Assembly (NCBI GenBank): GCA_038400315.1 | Contig: CP151667.1 | Coordinates: forward strand, 5,777,174-5,841,173 | From: Isosphaeraceae bacterium EP7 | GTDB taxonomy: Bacteria; Planctomycetota; Planctomycetia; Isosphaerales; Isosphaeraceae | DNA length: 64,000 nt | Reading direction: 5' to 3' | In this document: positions 23,551 to 33,034 of the stretch, in pieces | Layout of the letters: each line of letters starts with the position of its first letter | Position numbering within the stretch: the first letter of the stretch is position 1 | Position numbers and translations under genes: made by a program | The notes under the pieces: generated by a model | The model's input: the letters and a program-made list of their open reading frames with translations, nothing else | Database searches by the model: none | What the model was told of the DNA's origin: nothing

Positions 23551-24667
23551 TTGACTCCAGCCTAGCCAACTGAACCGATAGGCTTTGCCATTCGTATCAG
23601 TAATCATGAGACCCATCGGCACCGCAGAAGAGCTCCAACGTCGCCGCATCCGGGCCGTCGAGCTCGTCGCCCAGGGCGAATCGCCCGACGACGTCGCCCA
23701 CTTCGTCGGGTGCGGCCGATCCTCCGTCTACACCTGGGTGAAACTCGCCAAGGAGTCGATCGAGACGATCGCCGCCAAGCCCCACGCCGGGCCCAAGCCC
23801 CGCCTCGGCTCCGCCCAGTTGGAGCAACTCGAAGACGAGCTGAAGAAGGGGGCCGTGCACCACGGCTGGCGCACCGAGCTGTGGACCGCCGCACGTGTTG
23901 CTGACCTGATCGAGCGACGGTTCAGGATCACGTTCCACCCCGAGCACGTCCGCAAGATCCTCAAGCGGCGCCTCCGCTGGACCAGCCAGAAGCCCGAGAA
24001 GCGGGCCGAGGAGCGAGACGAGGAGGCGATCCGCCACTGAATGGGTCAGGAACTGCCCAACATCGTCCGCAAGGCCCGGCGACGAGGCGAGCAGCTGGTC
24101 TTCCTCGACGAATCGGGCTTCATGCAGGCCCCCACGGTGCGACGCACCTTCGCCCCGAGAGGCCAGACGCCGATCCTCCGACGCTGGGATCGCCACGATC
24201 GGATCTCGGCGATCAGTTGCATCACGGTCGGCCCGGCGAGGCGACGACTCGGCCTGTACTGCCAACTCTCGCCGGATGACACCAACGTGACGGGCGAGCG
24301 GATGGTGGAGTTCTTGCGAGAGCTTCGCCGTCAGCTGCCGGTGCCGATGCGGATCGTGTGGGACCGCGGCAACGTGCACGACAGGAGCAAGGCGGTGCGG
24401 GCATTCCTGGCGGAGCACCCGTCGGTGAAGACGGAGCGTTTCCCGTCGTACACGCCCGAGGCGAACCCCGACGAGGGGGTGTGGCAGGATACCAAGCACG
24501 GACGGCTGGCGAACTTCACGCCCGAGGACACGGCGGAGTTGCGTTCGGCGGTGAGCGGGGAGTTGACGAGGTTGCAGCGGAGTCCGAAGCTGCTGGCGTC
24601 GTTCATCCGGCACGCAGAAGTCCCGATCCGCCTACCCAAATCGTTCCGTTAGCTACGCTGGAGTCAA
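23551..24667 (+). mobile_element. IS630-E (1117 bp)
   Basis: Ends read inward are TTGACTCCAGCCTAGCCAAC (23551) and TTGACTCCAGCGTAGCTAAC (from 24667), nearly identical over 20 bases. TA flanks both sides (23549-23550 and 24668-24669). Removing the element and one TA fuses the two halves of a host gene in frame, which proves the insertion. Confidence 0.92.
23606..24652 (+). pseudogene. IS630-E transposase with one nonsense codon
   Basis: Starts MRPIGTAEELQRRRIRAVEL with an HTH (DDVAHFVGCGRSSVYTWVKL). The frame reaches EEAIRH and meets TGA at 24038-24040, where IS630-A and relatives have a Trp (IARW). It then continues in the same frame with MGQELPNIVRKARRRGEQLV, the DDE blocks FLDESGFMQAPT, IVWDRGNVHDRS and YTPEANPDEGVWQD, and ends at TAG 24650-24652. 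A single TGG to TGA change explains the break; a restart at the ATG following the stop would give only the catalytic part. Confidence 0.85.
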
Positions 24668-25376: not shown

Positions 25377-27383
25377 TCACTCATCAATAATAGCAAATGG
25401 ATGCGGAGGTTCGTGCGTGGCAGACTGTTGAGTCGTGAGCGGGTGAACCGCCGAGGTCCCGTCAAACCAGATCCACTCGTCGAACTGGTTGGGGAGCGAG
25501 GCATCGAAATAATGGCTTAGTCGCTCGGTTTCTGGGCGATAAATCACGCCAATGGCTCGCTCCAACCGCCTCTGCGTCAGTGCGGTGGTCAACTGCTGGT
25601 TGCGCGATTTTGCCAGCGGCAAGAAAAACGAATCCATCTCAGTCAGGTGCATCAACCGCTCGTAGCTGTCCGGAAGGGCGGGACGCACTTGTTTCACCTC
25701 CATCGCACCTTCCCAAGCCGAGGCGGCTGCCACAGTTCCATGGTCCGTCCCCTGTCCAATCGCGTAGACATCCTTGCCAAACGCCTGCCGGCAAAGTTGA
25801 CCGACGTTAAGTTGCCCGTGTTTTCCAAACTGCGTGGCTGCCGCATTTCCCAGGTGAGAGTTGTGCTCCCAGATCACGGCTTTGGATCGGCCCCGGTACC
25901 GGCCGAGCAACAACCGCAATGTTTCGAACATGTGGGTGTCGCGGTGATTCCAGGACTCGTCGGACCCATAATACATGATCCGATAATACTGCTCGGCATC
26001 GGCCACCAGCCGGGCGTTCAATTGGGCGTCGAACAAGTCCTCACCGTCGCGGACGGAGGCCTCCACTCGACGTTGGGTCATCTCTCGGAGCATCCGCACG
26101 ACTTCGGTTTCGCAGCTGTGATACTCCCCGGTCAACGTCGCCCGACCGTAGGTGGCGGGATCCCCTTCCCAGGGCGTCAGGCATCCATAACGGACCCGTG
26201 CCACGGCCGCCGCCTGGGAATCGACGCGGTCAAGATAGTCCAGCACACAATCCACCGAGGTGAACAGGCTGTATAGATCGAGACCGTAAAATCCGACCCG
26301 TCGCTCCGGCAATCGCTGTTGCAGGTTGTAATCACGAAGCCAGTGAATGAAGTCGAGCACTTCCTGGTTGCGCCACATCCATGTCGGGAATCGAGCGAAC
26401 GCCTCCCAATCGTGAGGCTCATCACGCTCTTTGTGAGTGACAAAGTCGTGAATCCGGTATGCATCGGGCCAGTCTGCCTCGACCGCGACAAAATCGAAGT
26501 TCTTCCGCTCGATCAGTGCCTTGGTGATCTCGGCTCGGATGCGATAAAATTCCGATGTTCCGTGACTCGCCTCGCCAATCAACACCAAGCGTGCATCGCC
26601 GATCCGATCTAGGAGAGGCTGCAAGTCTGCGTTTTCTATCGAAGAAAATGGCTCCGCGGCGTTCCGAATCAATTCGGGTAGTCCCATCGACGCTTTGGTC
26701 GGCCGTCTCATGATATTAGGCCGCTTGCTCTCACCTTCCTCCTGCCAACCGGCTTCGCCGATCAAGGGGACAAATCGAACGGCCCCCAACTCTTCATACT
26801 CGAAATCATCGTCTCCTCGTCGGATCGCGCGAATCAGCTGTTGGGTGTCTTGCTCCTCACCGACGGGAATCACGAGACGTCCGCCGATACGGAGCTGTTC
26901 CAGGAGAGCATGCGGGATCCCCGGACCGCCCGCCGCCACAACGATCGCATCAAACGGGGCCTCTTCTGGCCAGCCACGAGTACCATCTCCCCAGAGCACG
27001 TGGACATTCCCGTAGCCCAACCGCTTGAGTCGCTCCCCCGCCGATTCGGCCAATGCTTGATGCCGTTCGACCGTGAACACTTCTTTCGCGATCTGCGACA
27101 GGATCGCCGCCGCGTACCCCGAACCGGCCCCAATTTCGAGAACCCGCTCGTCAGGCGACAGTTCCAGCGCCTCGGCCATATGCGCCACGATCAAGGGCTG
27201 CGAGATCGTCTGTCCGGAGCCGATCGGTAGTGGCGCATTGCGGTAGGCGAATTCCTTCATTTCCTCGGACACGAACGATTCCCTAGGGACGATACGCATC
27301 GCATGCAGGACGGCTTCGTCTCGAATCCCGAGAATCCGCAGTTCGTGCTCAACAAGCCGTTCTCGTTGCCGCTCGAAACTCAT
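25377..27383 (-). CDS. protein-L-isoaspartate O-methyltransferase / erythromycin-esterase fusion
   Basis: A 668-residue two-domain protein. Residues about 5-215 are a PCMT: ESFVSEEMKEFAYRNAPLPI, GQTISQPLIVAHM, VLEIGAGSGYAAAIL (SAM-binding motif I) and GGRLVIPVG. Residues about 235-650 are an erythromycin-esterase-type domain: LVLIGEASHGTSEFYRIRAE, FVAVEADWPDAYRIHDFV, VGFYGLDLYSL and VIWEHNSHLGNA, with the catalytic-type His/Glu residues present. PCMT repairs isoaspartate; the esterase homologue probably hydrolyses an unknown ester. The start MSFERQRERLVEHEL matches the PCMT N-terminus; a longer upstream frame is not conserved-looking. It lies upstream of the broken host gene at 25271 on the same strand. 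Confidence 0.88.
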   Translation of the reverse strand: MSFERQRERLVEHELRILGIRDEAVLHAMRIVPRESFVSEEMKEFAYRNAPLPIGSGQTISQPLIVAHMAEALELSPDERVLEIGAGSGYAAAILSQIAKEVFTVERHQALAESAGERLKRLGYGNVHVLWGDGTRGWPEEAPFDAIVVAAGGPGIPHALLEQLRIGGRLVIPVGEEQDTQQLIRAIRRGDDDFEYEELGAVRFVPLIGEAGWQEEGESKRPNIMRRPTKASMGLPELIRNAAEPFSSIENADLQPLLDRIGDARLVLIGEASHGTSEFYRIRAEITKALIERKNFDFVAVEADWPDAYRIHDFVTHKERDEPHDWEAFARFPTWMWRNQEVLDFIHWLRDYNLQQRLPERRVGFYGLDLYSLFTSVDCVLDYLDRVDSQAAAVARVRYGCLTPWEGDPATYGRATLTGEYHSCETEVVRMLREMTQRRVEASVRDGEDLFDAQLNARLVADAEQYYRIMYYGSDESWNHRDTHMFETLRLLLGRYRGRSKAVIWEHNSHLGNAAATQFGKHGQLNVGQLCRQAFGKDVYAIGQGTDHGTVAAASAWEGAMEVKQVRPALPDSYERLMHLTEMDSFFLPLAKSRNQQLTTALTQRRLERAIGVIYRPETERLSHYFDASLPNQFDEWIWFDGTSAVHPLTTQQSATHEPPHPFAIIDE

Positions 27384-27719
27384 TTGAGTCACTCGATGTG
27401 GTTCCGGGACATGCCGAGTTGGGTTTTTGCTCGAAAGATGCTCGCTAGTGGGCAGGGTCCGCACCGGCTTCCCTGTCTCTCGCCTTGAGTTGTCCGTCCT
27501 TCGAAAACAAATCTGCGCTACGCCGCCGACATCGCGGCCGGTGTGCCAGCTGCGTTCGACCTCGTCCAACATTACTAATAAGTGAATCTTACTCTTGAGT
27601 CCATCTCGAGTCTACTCATGACATGAGATTTTCGATGGATAGGGGGGGGACTTCCGCTCGTTCCCCATGGCCTTTGCATATCGCCCAGTCCGCCGTGCGG
27701 GTGGTCCTGTTATACCCAG
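27384..27719. other. non-coding region upstream of the PCMT/esterase gene
   Basis: About 336 bases with no convincing gene. It is AT-richer near 27570-27640, with several ATGAGATTTT-like stretches that could hold the minus-strand promoter. A GGGGGGG run lies at about 27643-27649. No confident site is assigned. Confidence 0.3.
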
Positions 27720-28837: not shown

Positions 28838-30100
28838 ATGTCTCAGGTCGAGACCAGCGGCAGCGATCGGCGTAGCTTCCTCCAGGCCGGGGCAGTCGCC
28901 ACCGCCGCGGCGCTCGGCGCCGGGGCTTCCAGGGCCGAGGCCCAGGCCCCCGAACAGGCCAAGCCCGCGAAGCCGACCGTCCTCCCCATGCGAACGCTGG
29001 GCAGGACGGGCATCCAGATGACGATGCTGGAGATGGGCACCGGGGCCCTCCGCGAGCGCGGCGTGCTCGACCGCATGCTCCGCCAGTCGTACGCCAGCGG
29101 CGTGCGGACCTACGACACCGCCAAAGCCTACGGCACCGAGCCGGGCTTCAAGCGCTGGTTCGAGCAGTCGCCCGAAGTCCGCAAGGAGATCGTCCTCGTC
29201 ACGAAGGACGTGCCCAAGGCCCCCAAGGACATGATGGCCCAGCTCGACGAGCGCCTGGCCGCCATGGGCACCGACTACGTCGATCTGTTCTTCATCCACG
29301 GGCTGGGCGACGATCAGTCGAGCGTCGACTCGGCGATTAAGTTGGTGACGAGCAAGGAGTTCAAGGAGGCCGCCGACGCCATTCGCAAGTCCGGCAAGGC
29401 CAAGTTCCTCGGCTTCTCCACCCACCACCGCAACCGCGCCGAGATCATTGAGGCCGCTGCCAAGGCCGGCTACATCGACGCCGTGATGCTCCAGTACACC
29501 CCCTGGCTGGAGAAGGATTCGCCGCTGAACAAGGCGCTCGACGTGGCCCACAAGGCGGGCGTCGGCCTCATCTCGATGAAGCAGGTTGCCGGCCAGTTCC
29601 CCGAGAAGCCCAAGGTCAACATCCTCGACGAGGTCGCCAGGCGAGTGCCGATGCTCGCCGAACGGAAACTGACCCCGTATCAGGGCCTGCTCCAGGCGAT
29701 CTGGACCGACGAACGCATCAGCGGCTCGTGTGTGTCGATCAAGACGGTTGACCAGCTTCGCGACAACGCCGACGCAGCCCGCCGTTACGAGCCCCTGAAG
29801 GCCGCCGAGATCGACCAGCTCCGCGACGCCGCACTCGCCTTCGGACCGACCATGTGCGCCGACTGCGACGGCCGCTGCTCCACGGCCGCCGGCACCAAGG
29901 CCGAGCTGGGCAACCTGACCCGGTTCTACACCTACCACGAGCACCACGGCCTGCGCTCCGAGGCCCGCAAGCAATACGCCGCCATGGCCGGCGACGCACG
30001 CGACTGGGCCGGCGCCGACCTGGAAGCCGCCCGCAACGCCTGCCCTAATAAGCTCAATTTCGCCGAACTGCTCCCCCGTACCGACGATCTGCTCGCCTGA
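28838..30100 (+). CDS. Tat-exported aldo/keto reductase with C-terminal cysteine cluster
   Basis: A 420-residue protein. The N-terminus DRRSFLQAGAVATAAALGAG is a twin-arginine-type signal ending near AEAQA, so it is probably folded before export. The AKR barrel follows: TLGRTGIQMTMLEMG, RTYDTAKAYGTEP (catalytic Asp and Tyr), VLVTKDV (Lys) and DLFFIHGL (His). The C-terminal extension has CADCDGRC and a later Cys in ACPNKL, a CxxCxxxC pattern compatible with an iron-sulfur cluster. Many planctomycetes encode such paralogues; substrate is unknown. A hairpin terminator follows at 30126. Confidence 0.88.
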   Translation: MSQVETSGSDRRSFLQAGAVATAAALGAGASRAEAQAPEQAKPAKPTVLPMRTLGRTGIQMTMLEMGTGALRERGVLDRMLRQSYASGVRTYDTAKAYGTEPGFKRWFEQSPEVRKEIVLVTKDVPKAPKDMMAQLDERLAAMGTDYVDLFFIHGLGDDQSSVDSAIKLVTSKEFKEAADAIRKSGKAKFLGFSTHHRNRAEIIEAAAKAGYIDAVMLQYTPWLEKDSPLNKALDVAHKAGVGLISMKQVAGQFPEKPKVNILDEVARRVPMLAERKLTPYQGLLQAIWTDERISGSCVSIKTVDQLRDNADAARRYEPLKAAEIDQLRDAALAFGPTMCADCDGRCSTAAGTKAELGNLTRFYTYHEHHGLRSEARKQYAAMAGDARDWAGADLEAARNACPNKLNFAELLPRTDDLLA

Positions 30101-30812: not shown

Positions 30813-32384
30813 ATGGGGCCAAATTTCCTACGTCGGCCTCGGCCGACGGTTGCTCTCGGGGCGATGCTGGCGCTCGCCCTCGTCGCCTCACCCCTCCGGG
30901 CGGACGAATTCAGATTCCATCATGAAAACGTGATGGGCACCTCGCTCGAGCTACGCGTGAGGGCCGACGACATCGGCATCGCCTCGCGCGCCGAGCAGAT
31001 GGTCCTGGCGGAGATCGACCGCCTCGCCGCGATCGTCAGCACCTATGAGCCGACCAGCGAGCTGAGCCGCTGGAGATCGGCCGGCCCAGGAGCGGCTCCC
31101 CAACGCCTCTCGGCCGAGCTTCACGATCTCCTCGCCACTTCGGACGAATGGACGAACGCCACCGGAGGCGCGTTCGACCCGCGAGTCGAGGCCGTCATCC
31201 AGCTCTGGAAAGTCGCCAGCTCCGCCCCTCCGTCGGATGCCCAGGTCCAGGCGGCCTTGCGGCGAATGAAGCCTCCCGCCTGGCGACTCGATCCGAAGAC
31301 GAAGACGGCCGAGCTCCTCACCGACTGCCCGATCACCCTGGATGCCATCGCCAAAGGAGAGATCGTCGGCCGTGCTTGCGACGCCGCCTTCGACGGCGTG
31401 CCCGGCCTGCACGGGCTGCTTCTCAACGTCGGCGGAGATCTCCGCGCCCGCGGAAATGAGACCTGGCGGATCGGCGTCGCCTCGCCCAGTCAAGATTCCG
31501 AGACGAGCGCCCCGCTGTGCCTCATCGAGATCAATGACGTTGCCGTTGCGACCAGCGGCCGCTCGCAACGAGGGTTCACCGTCGGCGGTCGGCGAGAATC
31601 GCACATCCTGGACCCCCGCACGGGCCTGCCCGCGCGGAGCATCGACGGCGCCACCGTGATCGCCCCGCGTTCAATCGATGCGGACGCCCTGGCCACCGCA
31701 TGCAACGTGCTCGACCCGGCCGCCAGCATCAAACTCGCCGAGTCGATCCCCGGCGTCGAATGCCTGATCGTCGAGTCGAACGGCCGGATCCATCAGAGTA
31801 AGGGTTGGGCCCGATACGAGGCAGTCGCGTTCGCCTCGGCCAGGGAGGTCGCCCTGCCAGCCGCCGAGGAGAAGGCCGCCGAGCCCGCGACCTGGGGCGT
31901 CGATCACGAGGTGGTGGTCGAGTTCGAGATCGTCAAGCCGGCCACCGAGCAGGGACGGTACCGTCGGCCCTATATCGCCGTCTGGGTCGAGGACAAGGAC
32001 GGACAGCCGGTGCGGACCCTGGCCCTCTGGGTCTCGCAAGGGGGCGCAGGGCCGTTCCAGTGGCTGCCCGACCTGCGCCGATGGTTCGCGGCCGACCAAG
32101 AGCGGAAGAAGTTCGACAAGACGGACATGGTGCTCACCATCTCCAGACCGACCCGCCCGCCCGGCAAGTACTCGGTGATCTGGGACGGCAAGGATAACAA
32201 GAAGAAGCCGCTGGGCCCCGGCCAATACACCCTCTGCATCGACTCGGCCCGCGAGCACGGCACGTCCGAATCGATCCGCCAGGAGATCAACGTCGGCGGC
32301 GATACCTTCCGCGTGACCGCCGAGGGGAACGCCGAGGTCTCCTCGGCCGCCTTCGAGTACCGGGTCAAGGCGGTGAAGAAGTGA
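30813..32384 (+). CDS. ApbE-like FAD:protein FMN transferase fused to DUF2271
   Basis: A 523-residue exported protein; signal peptide MGPNFLRRPRPTVALGAMLA with cleavage near SPLRADE. Residues about 30-330 form the ApbE domain: NVMGTSLELRV, DAIAKGEIVGRACDA, LLNVGGDLRARG, SHILDPRTGLPARS and DALATACNVL. Residues about 355-515 form DUF2271: ATWGVDHEVVVEFEI, YIAVWVEDKDG, WFAADQERKKFD and YTLCIDSAREHG. ApbE attaches FMN to Thr/Ser of extracytosolic redox proteins, so it probably flavinylates itself or a partner. It overlaps the next gene by 4 bases (GTGA). Start chosen at the ATG after GAGGGA. Confidence 0.87.
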   Translation: MGPNFLRRPRPTVALGAMLALALVASPLRADEFRFHHENVMGTSLELRVRADDIGIASRAEQMVLAEIDRLAAIVSTYEPTSELSRWRSAGPGAAPQRLSAELHDLLATSDEWTNATGGAFDPRVEAVIQLWKVASSAPPSDAQVQAALRRMKPPAWRLDPKTKTAELLTDCPITLDAIAKGEIVGRACDAAFDGVPGLHGLLLNVGGDLRARGNETWRIGVASPSQDSETSAPLCLIEINDVAVATSGRSQRGFTVGGRRESHILDPRTGLPARSIDGATVIAPRSIDADALATACNVLDPAASIKLAESIPGVECLIVESNGRIHQSKGWARYEAVAFASAREVALPAAEEKAAEPATWGVDHEVVVEFEIVKPATEQGRYRRPYIAVWVEDKDGQPVRTLALWVSQGGAGPFQWLPDLRRWFAADQERKKFDKTDMVLTISRPTRPPGKYSVIWDGKDNKKKPLGPGQYTLCIDSAREHGTSESIRQEINVGGDTFRVTAEGNAEVSSAAFEYRVKAVKK

Positions 32385-33034
32385 CCGAGGACTCCCCACG
32401 GCCGAGACTGCCGCGACGCTCGAAATGGCGCAGTTTCAGCATACGCATCGCGTCGACCATGCGATGGCTGCATATTTACCTGTCGATGCTCGGGCTGGCC
32501 GTCACCCTCTTCTTCGCCGTCACGGGGCTGACCCTGAACCATCCGCAATGGTTCCACACTGAGAGGCGGATCGAGGCCGAGGGAACCATCGAGGGACGCT
32601 GGCTCACCCCCCGCCCCGGTGCCGATGGGGCGACCGACGACGTCGCCAGGCTCGAAATTGTCGAGCACCTGCGGGCCAGCCAGGGCTTCCGCGGTGCGCT
32701 CGCCGATTTCCGCGTCGACGACCGCGAGTGCTCCGTCACCTTCAAAGGTCCCGGCTACTCCGCCGACGCGTTCATCGACCGCGAGACAGGACGCTACACG
32801 GGAAGCCAGACCATCCACGGCCTCGTCGCCGTGCTGAACGACCTGCACAAAGGGCGGGACACCGGCCCGGCCTGGTCGTGGCTCATCGACGTCTCGGCCG
32901 TCGTCCTCGTCGTCATCTCGCTGACCGGCCTGATCCTCCTTTTCTACCTGAAGCTACGCCGCCGCCCGGGCCTGGTTGTCGCCCTGGTCGGATTGATCCT
33001 GTCCGTCGCCGTGGCCTACCTGTGGGTCCCCTGA
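32381..33034 (+). CDS. PepSY-associated membrane protein, partner of ApbE-DUF2271
   Basis: A 217-residue inner-membrane protein with GTG start overlapping the previous stop. Transmembrane segments lie at about 31-51, 166-190 and 197-215. Histidines near the membrane (RWLHIYLSM, LTLNHPQ, TIHGLVAVLNDLHKG) fit the haem- or redox-linked PepSY_TM family. The periplasmic loop holds a PepSY-like unit with RETGRYTG. The tight coupling to ApbE-DUF2271 suggests an electron path across the membrane to a flavin carrier. A DGAT at residues 82-85 resembles, but does not strictly match, flavinylation sites. Confidence 0.83.
   Translation: MTEDSPRPRLPRRSKWRSFSIRIASTMRWLHIYLSMLGLAVTLFFAVTGLTLNHPQWFHTERRIEAEGTIEGRWLTPRPGADGATDDVARLEIVEHLRASQGFRGALADFRVDDRECSVTFKGPGYSADAFIDRETGRYTGSQTIHGLVAVLNDLHKGRDTGPAWSWLIDVSAVVLVVISLTGLILLFYLKLRRRPGLVVALVGLILSVAVAYLWVP

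Follow-up and report, generated by a model that had tools for sequence, protein, structure and literature searches.

A fused ApbE-DUF2271 protein beside a PepSY membrane protein in a planctomycete: motif loss around a retained acceptor residue

In the planctomycete Isosphaeraceae bacterium EP7, an ApbE flavin transferase and a DUF2271 domain are encoded as a single protein, and the gene for a three-helix PepSY membrane protein overlaps its end. The flavin attachment motif is mostly lost from fused DUF2271 domains while the attachment residue itself is kept, which suggests that the enzyme may modify itself. The best explanation, in which our confidence is about evenly balanced, is that the fusion flavinylates its own Thr447, that tethering takes the place of the motif, and that electrons pass between the flavin and the PepSY protein. 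The stretch of DNA analysed (hereafter the window) comprises 64,000 nucleotides of contig CP151667.1, and all coordinates below are counted from its first base.

The fusion gene and its membrane partner

The features of the locus, all on the forward strand, are the following:

30813-32384, +: ApbE-DUF2271 fusion gene, ATG to TGA, 523 aa, with an N-terminal signal-like segment (signal read by eye)
30933-31769, +: ApbE flavin transferase domain, aa 41-319 (PF02424), with S248, H264 and D291 kept
31932-32342, +: DUF2271 domain, aa 374-510 (PF10029 profile match)
32133-32153, +: candidate acceptor segment LTISRPT, aa 441-447, with the putative FMN acceptor Thr447; D-x-x-[ST]-G-A-[ST] not kept
32381-32384, +: GTGA overlap, start of the PepSY gene over the stop of the fusion (read from the sequence)
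32381-33034, +: PepSY_TM_like_2 membrane protein, 217 aa (PF16357), GTG to TGA, with H31, H54 and H156 invariant

The fusion proposed in the original prediction is borne out by Pfam, both domains exceeding their cut-offs within one open reading frame (PF02424 at 205.6 bits against 25.6, PF10029 at 119 bits against 27.3). An AlphaFold model of the mature protein, built on 50 sequences, has a mean pLDDT of 91.5 and a pTM of 0.88, with a weak stretch at residues 314-326, between the ApbE and DUF2271 domains; when the first part of the model was searched with Foldseek, the top 39 rows were all solved ApbE, Ftp or FmnB chains (best E 2.3e-22). The first 30 or so residues resemble a Sec signal by eye, and the protein is probably exported.

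The active-site positions of ApbE are intact in the window protein on alignment: S248, H264 and D291 would correspond, through that alignment, to the Ser-His-Asp residues of characterised ApbEs named in PMC12052999 (this and the other papers are cited from excerpts). Over 50 fusions the Ser and His are invariant and the Asp nearly so. The catalytic motifs, on the absence of which the original prediction would have been given up, are thus present, and FMN transfer activity is predicted for the fused domain. A degenerate or dead ApbE was considered and rejected, as the AKGE of the window protein, in place of the usual AKGY, falls inside the variation of its homologues.

The PepSY protein matches PF16357 at 161.9 bits (cut-off 27), and its model contains helices at 15-53, 163-189 and 191-215, in line with hydropathy and with the three helices originally predicted. 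H31, H54 and H156 are present in 49 of 49 alignment rows, which answers the earlier suggestion that conservation of the membrane histidines be checked. PepSY-type proteins are seen as heme-containing membrane electron carriers, and Pseudomonas aeruginosa FoxB (7ABW) and Vibrio cholerae VciB share with the window protein PepSY-type helices and the conserved family His (PMC11334425); heme b is probably bound here via the conserved histidines. A FoxB-like fold was found by neither structure nor sequence search of the PDB: the model has no match at E<=0.001, and the sole sequence match (E 0.33) is to an unrelated protein, so that the likeness to FoxB is one of family and histidines only. In contrast to the window PepSY, VciB has no link with flavinylation genes in the excerpts of PMC8238504 used here.

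Two further claims had been made for this gene. The GTGA overlap at 32381-32384 is indeed there and places the PepSY-like gene inside the flavinylation gene cluster, while translational coupling of the two genes, which had been claimed along with it, is what such an overlap would suggest. The residues DGAT at PepSY positions 82-85, named as a weak candidate flavin site, were rejected as an acceptor, lying in a gappy alignment loop and occurring in one of 49 rows (the window's own); [ST]GA[ST] also occurs in one of the 49, and that row is not the window's.

Spread of the fusion and neighbouring genes

The nearest named records of the window DUF2271 domain are mostly Isosphaeraceae, Aquisphaera or Singulisphaera. 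Within the window's order, Isosphaerales, DUF2271 was found in 34 of 45 genomes, at 37 places; ApbE and DUF2271 share one open reading frame at 36 of these, the remaining one starting at a contig edge, and a PepSY gene adjoins the locus at 31 of the 37 (the window included). In a draw of 392 genomes from the phylum, DUF2271 was present in 39. The window genome itself (7.2 Mb, five contigs) encodes four ApbE proteins, two DUF2271 domains (both fused) and one PF16357 protein, and neither a second PF16357 gene nor a separate DUF2271 was found in it. Because it also has no FMN_bind, DUF3570 or NqrB/RnfD proteins, the two fused DUF2271 domains are the only members that it has of the substrate classes searched (FMN_bind, DUF3570, NqrB/RnfD and DUF2271, from a published set that also holds Flavodoxin_4 and FMN_red).

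The neighbours of the fusion/PepSY pair (two genes upstream, one downstream) are an aldo/keto reductase, a receiver domain and a VWA/BatA gene. Clusters of PepSY, DUF2271 and ApbE have been described before, as the original prediction had said, with mention of a one-gene ApbE-DUF2271 (RUL87804.1; Meheust 2021, PMC8238504). The window resembles these PepSY-like flavinylation clusters in that ApbE, DUF2271 and a PF16357 protein are adjacent, and differs from them, as far as the excerpts of PMC8238504 describe them, in its acceptor, which is not [S/T]GA[S/T], and in that DUF4198, TonB receptor and VIT1 (iron-uptake neighbours that are frequent in such clusters, though not required) are absent from the three genes scanned.

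Several other observations concern the surroundings. The aldo/keto reductase (28838-30100, +; PF00248) has a Tat-like signal just under the Pfam cut-off and, by eye, a Cys cluster near its C-terminus. In a 731-aa open reading frame at 25377-27572 (-), a protein-L-isoaspartate methyltransferase domain (71-273) is followed by an erythromycin esterase domain (354-706), and at 23585-24652 (+) lies a transposase, which we take to be of the IS630 type, as two adjoining open reading frames for the helix-turn-helix part and the DDE_3 part.

Outside the window, fusions often follow an EF-hand gene. At 30 of 77 fusion loci (the window is without it) such an open reading frame is found on the fusion's strand, no more than 500 bases upstream; as a control, sequence of these loci beyond 3 kb, 388,754 bases in all, contained a single one. 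Counted were open reading frames with at least two EF-hand loops by our own pattern, omitting fusions with less than 700 bases upstream and near-duplicates. The loci belong to planctomycetes, acidobacteria and others (e.g. L084, L140, L148, L177), and six of the EF-hand genes end within 3 bases of, or overlap, the mechanical start of the fusion. Pfam EF-hands exceeded the cut-off in all six plain-type open reading frames submitted (L084, L085, L140, L148, L164, L177). In some planctomycetes the upstream protein combines Kelch, DUF3386 and EF-hand (L076, where EF-hand_1 scores 26.5 against a cut-off of 25.4 and EF-hand_5 stays under its cut-off). The second ApbE-DUF2271 fusion of the window genome (L091, G000:C1:3170000-3186000, at C1:3.177 Mb), with the motif SRAT, has an EF-hand gene 93 bases upstream and no PepSY neighbour. 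This genome (G000) and two others (G408, G410) have two fusions each, one linked to an EF-hand gene and one to PepSY, and the two kinds of partner thus seem to be divided between the copies. Among the PubMed Central matches listed, as judged by titles and the starts of abstracts, none dealt with this EF-hand link.

The acceptor site in fused and separate domains

DUF2271 is flavinylated by ApbE at [S/T]GA[S/T], and changing the T to A abolishes flavinylation (Meheust 2021, PMC8238504). The original prediction had left it unclear which protein is flavinylated; since that work shows DUF2271 to be a substrate of ApbE, DUF2271 is the published default answer. The window DUF2271, however, is without the published motif, a point that the original prediction had passed over: SRPT at 444-447 stands in its place, the upstream Asp is also lost, and [ST]GA[ST] occurs nowhere in the whole 523 residues. 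Throughout the 37 Isosphaerales loci the Thr is kept and the motif Gly is replaced by Arg or Gln.

The comparison was widened to 170 DUF2271 domain entries (147 + 23), of which 150 were used after removal of truncated or odd pieces (L107, L122, the L070 remnant and the first piece of L155), entries gapped at the motif, and duplicates. One of these 150, L247, a 518-aa protein without a match to ApbE, was excluded from the fused and separate counts, which therefore cover 149 domains; L155, which a stop divides in two, went in unmended as fused, and L150, possibly a broken fusion, as separate. The sample is non-random, the window's order and close hits being over-represented and 15 of 62 places of Alteromonadales matches having been taken. 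With this composition, [ST]GA[ST] is found in 10 of 91 fused (the ten fusions having kept SGAT) versus 47 of 58 separate domains, which leaves 11 separate ones without it, and the motif Asp in 13 of 91 versus 55 of 58. The acceptor position, by contrast, holds Thr or Ser in every domain (91/91 fused, 58/58 separate; 149/149 in total). The L070 remnant (L070:15093-15428, -) is a truncated DUF2271 by a full-length PepSY open reading frame, with the ApbE part missing and the acceptor Thr changed to Pro; because it is truncated, it was kept out of the evidence.

The loss falls on particular places. When retention was counted at 75% clustering (62 fused, 33 separate domains), 17 of the 24 columns that are conserved in separate domains, the acceptor included, stood at >=0.87 in fused ones, and the fused domain is therefore not decaying overall; losses concentrate on the motif and a few other positions. 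In the seven remaining columns retention is 0.08 for one Gly, 0.10 for the motif Asp, 0.18 for one Arg as for the motif Gly, 0.32 for a further Gly, 0.65 for a further Arg and 0.66 for the motif Ala, so that the motif Asp and Gly are among the four least retained of all 24; three of the poorly kept non-motif columns lie 13 to 21 alignment columns ahead of the motif. The Fisher p-values of this column comparison carry no correction for phylogeny and are not taken as proof.

Genomes with both forms (n=12) permit a comparison within one organism: eleven of them have a canonical separate copy and three a canonical fused one. For the five planctomycetes among them (L068; L071; L064/L077; L065/L076; L069/L074), Asp is present in 5/5 separate and 0/5 fused copies, and [ST]GA[ST] in 4/5 and 3/5, respectively; for the seven gammaproteobacteria (G440, G445, G452, G453, G455, G505, G525), [ST]GA[ST] is found in 7/7 separate and 0/7 fused copies. 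There are cases against the trend. In G105 the fused copy reads GVISGAT and the separate copy DGISAPS, two split ApbE/DUF2271 pairs (L165 and L170) are without the Asp though unfused, and SRAT occurs in two separate domains, L119 and L120, with the Asp kept.

The gammaproteobacterial fusions (L235-L239 and L244-L246, eight rows, plus the unclassified L247) form one clade (SH-aLRT 98), which sits among otherwise separate domains with a support of 92, under the tool's mark of 95. Their motifs are AGAT (five) and AKPT (three), none of the eight being canonical, and the Asp is kept in 8/8. This clade is likely a second fusion event with a partly convergent outcome, although not a proven one, because the tree columns are few, the branches long and the composition of these fusions odd. 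An independent-pairs test on two tree sets is under-powered, and no such test reaches significance because supported branches provide just three independent pairs: Asp goes in the expected direction in 2.6 of the 3 on average, and [ST]GA[ST] gives a mixed picture (of the 3, 1.5 agree with the expectation and 0.7 run counter to it). As for L247 (G516:C4), its DUF2271 carries AGAT and its N-terminal part, without a Pfam match at E<=0.01, is perhaps a far-diverged ApbE.

Mechanism, alternatives and related systems

In the proposed mechanism, FAD would supply the FMN that the exported fusion attaches to Thr447 in its own DUF2271 domain, either in cis or between the chains of a dimer. With donor and acceptor tethered, the D-x-x-[S/T]-G-A motif of separate substrates would be dispensable and only the hydroxyl residue would need to be kept. 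The flavinylated DUF2271 would then exchange electrons with the adjacent PepSY protein, probably a heme b protein, which would connect electron pools of the membrane or the cytosol with an acceptor outside the cell, perhaps ferric iron. The extracytosolic flavin-based electron path of the original prediction is thereby retained as the most likely role.

Other readings of the same evidence have to be weighed. It is possible, though we consider it unlikely, that the fused DUF2271 is no longer flavinylated, that ApbE with its bound FAD or FMN serves as a redox or flavin-delivery module for PepSY, and that Thr447 is structural. The loss of the motif D and G, and often of S and A, fits this reading, as do the Arg that follows the acceptor Thr in 81 of 82 fused domains and a Gly present in 82 of 82 (because these neighbours are as invariant as the Thr, the latter could be structural) and the FAD hydrolase activity of some ApbEs (PMC12052999); the restriction of the acceptor column to Thr or Ser, as a hydroxyl acceptor would predict, and the intact ApbE active site speak against it. 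More doubtful is that the fused ApbE acts mainly in trans, on an exported protein of an unrecognised class, with DUF2271 as a docking domain. In its favour are the four ApbE proteins of the genome and, in some planctomycetes (L068, L071), a canonical separate DUF2271 within 10 kb of the fusion; however, the window genome is without FMN_bind, DUF3570, NqrB/RnfD or a separate DUF2271, and the acceptor Thr/Ser of fused domains is still constrained.

Equally improbable, in our view, is that this is an ordinary PepSY-like cluster whose motif changes are drift within tolerated recognition, the fusion being mechanistically meaningless. Single changes are partly tolerated (G to A or A to V at ~50%, D to A with a minor effect; PMC12052999), and the SRAT of L119 and L120 arose in separate domains, albeit with the Asp kept. 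Drift of this kind sits poorly with the window protein having lost D, G and A together and with the difference between fused and separate domains, and self-flavinylation of Thr447 remains our preferred reading.

Among related systems, fusions are also found in another phylum. COG1477, the N-terminal part of Alteromonas macleodii MASE_18630, is presumably ApbE. That protein shares with the window fusion its arrangement, COG1477 followed by a C-terminal DUF2271, and is enriched under iron limitation (PMC7190382); the gammaproteobacterial fusions examined group separately from that of the window. ApbE and DUF2271 are common members of PepSY-like clusters, several of which are tied to iron (PMC8238504, PMC12004947, PMC7190382), so that a role in iron for the window pair is perhaps to be considered, by analogy with this work on Caulobacter, Alteromonas and Vibrio. 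The closest parallel is FRDg, a trypanosomatid fumarate reductase that carries an ApbE domain of its own: flavin transferase and acceptor are likewise in one chain, and Ser can stand for Gly in its motif, D(g/s)x(s/t)(s/g)AS; it is unlike the window protein in having an N-terminal acceptor, in being a glycosomal enzyme and in lacking DUF2271 and PepSY in the account used here (PMC8065229). A broader reading, tentative and held a little short of even confidence, is that these proteins are intramolecular flavin transferases resembling the trypanosomatid enzyme, in which tethering replaced motif recognition at least twice in bacteria: once in a group made up mainly of Planctomycetota and Acidobacteriota and once in Gammaproteobacteria, where the results converged in part (SRPT/ARPT in the former, AKPT in the latter).

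While ApbE/DUF2271/PepSY clusters and one-gene fusions were already known, motif loss in the fusions seems to be new: among the PubMed Central matches listed (titles and starts of abstracts, a set outside which most subscription papers fall), none addresses it, and a dedicated study of such an outward electron path in planctomycetes was not among the literature matches listed. ApbE substrates are predicted by D-x-x-[S/T]-G-A-[S/T], and should fused ones function in its absence, surveys that rely on it count too few. A flavoprotein that labels itself and has no motif would, if true, offer a natural way of testing what ApbE requires of a substrate, and the fused flavoprotein together with PepSY would constitute a compact two-gene path for outward electron transfer in planctomycetes.
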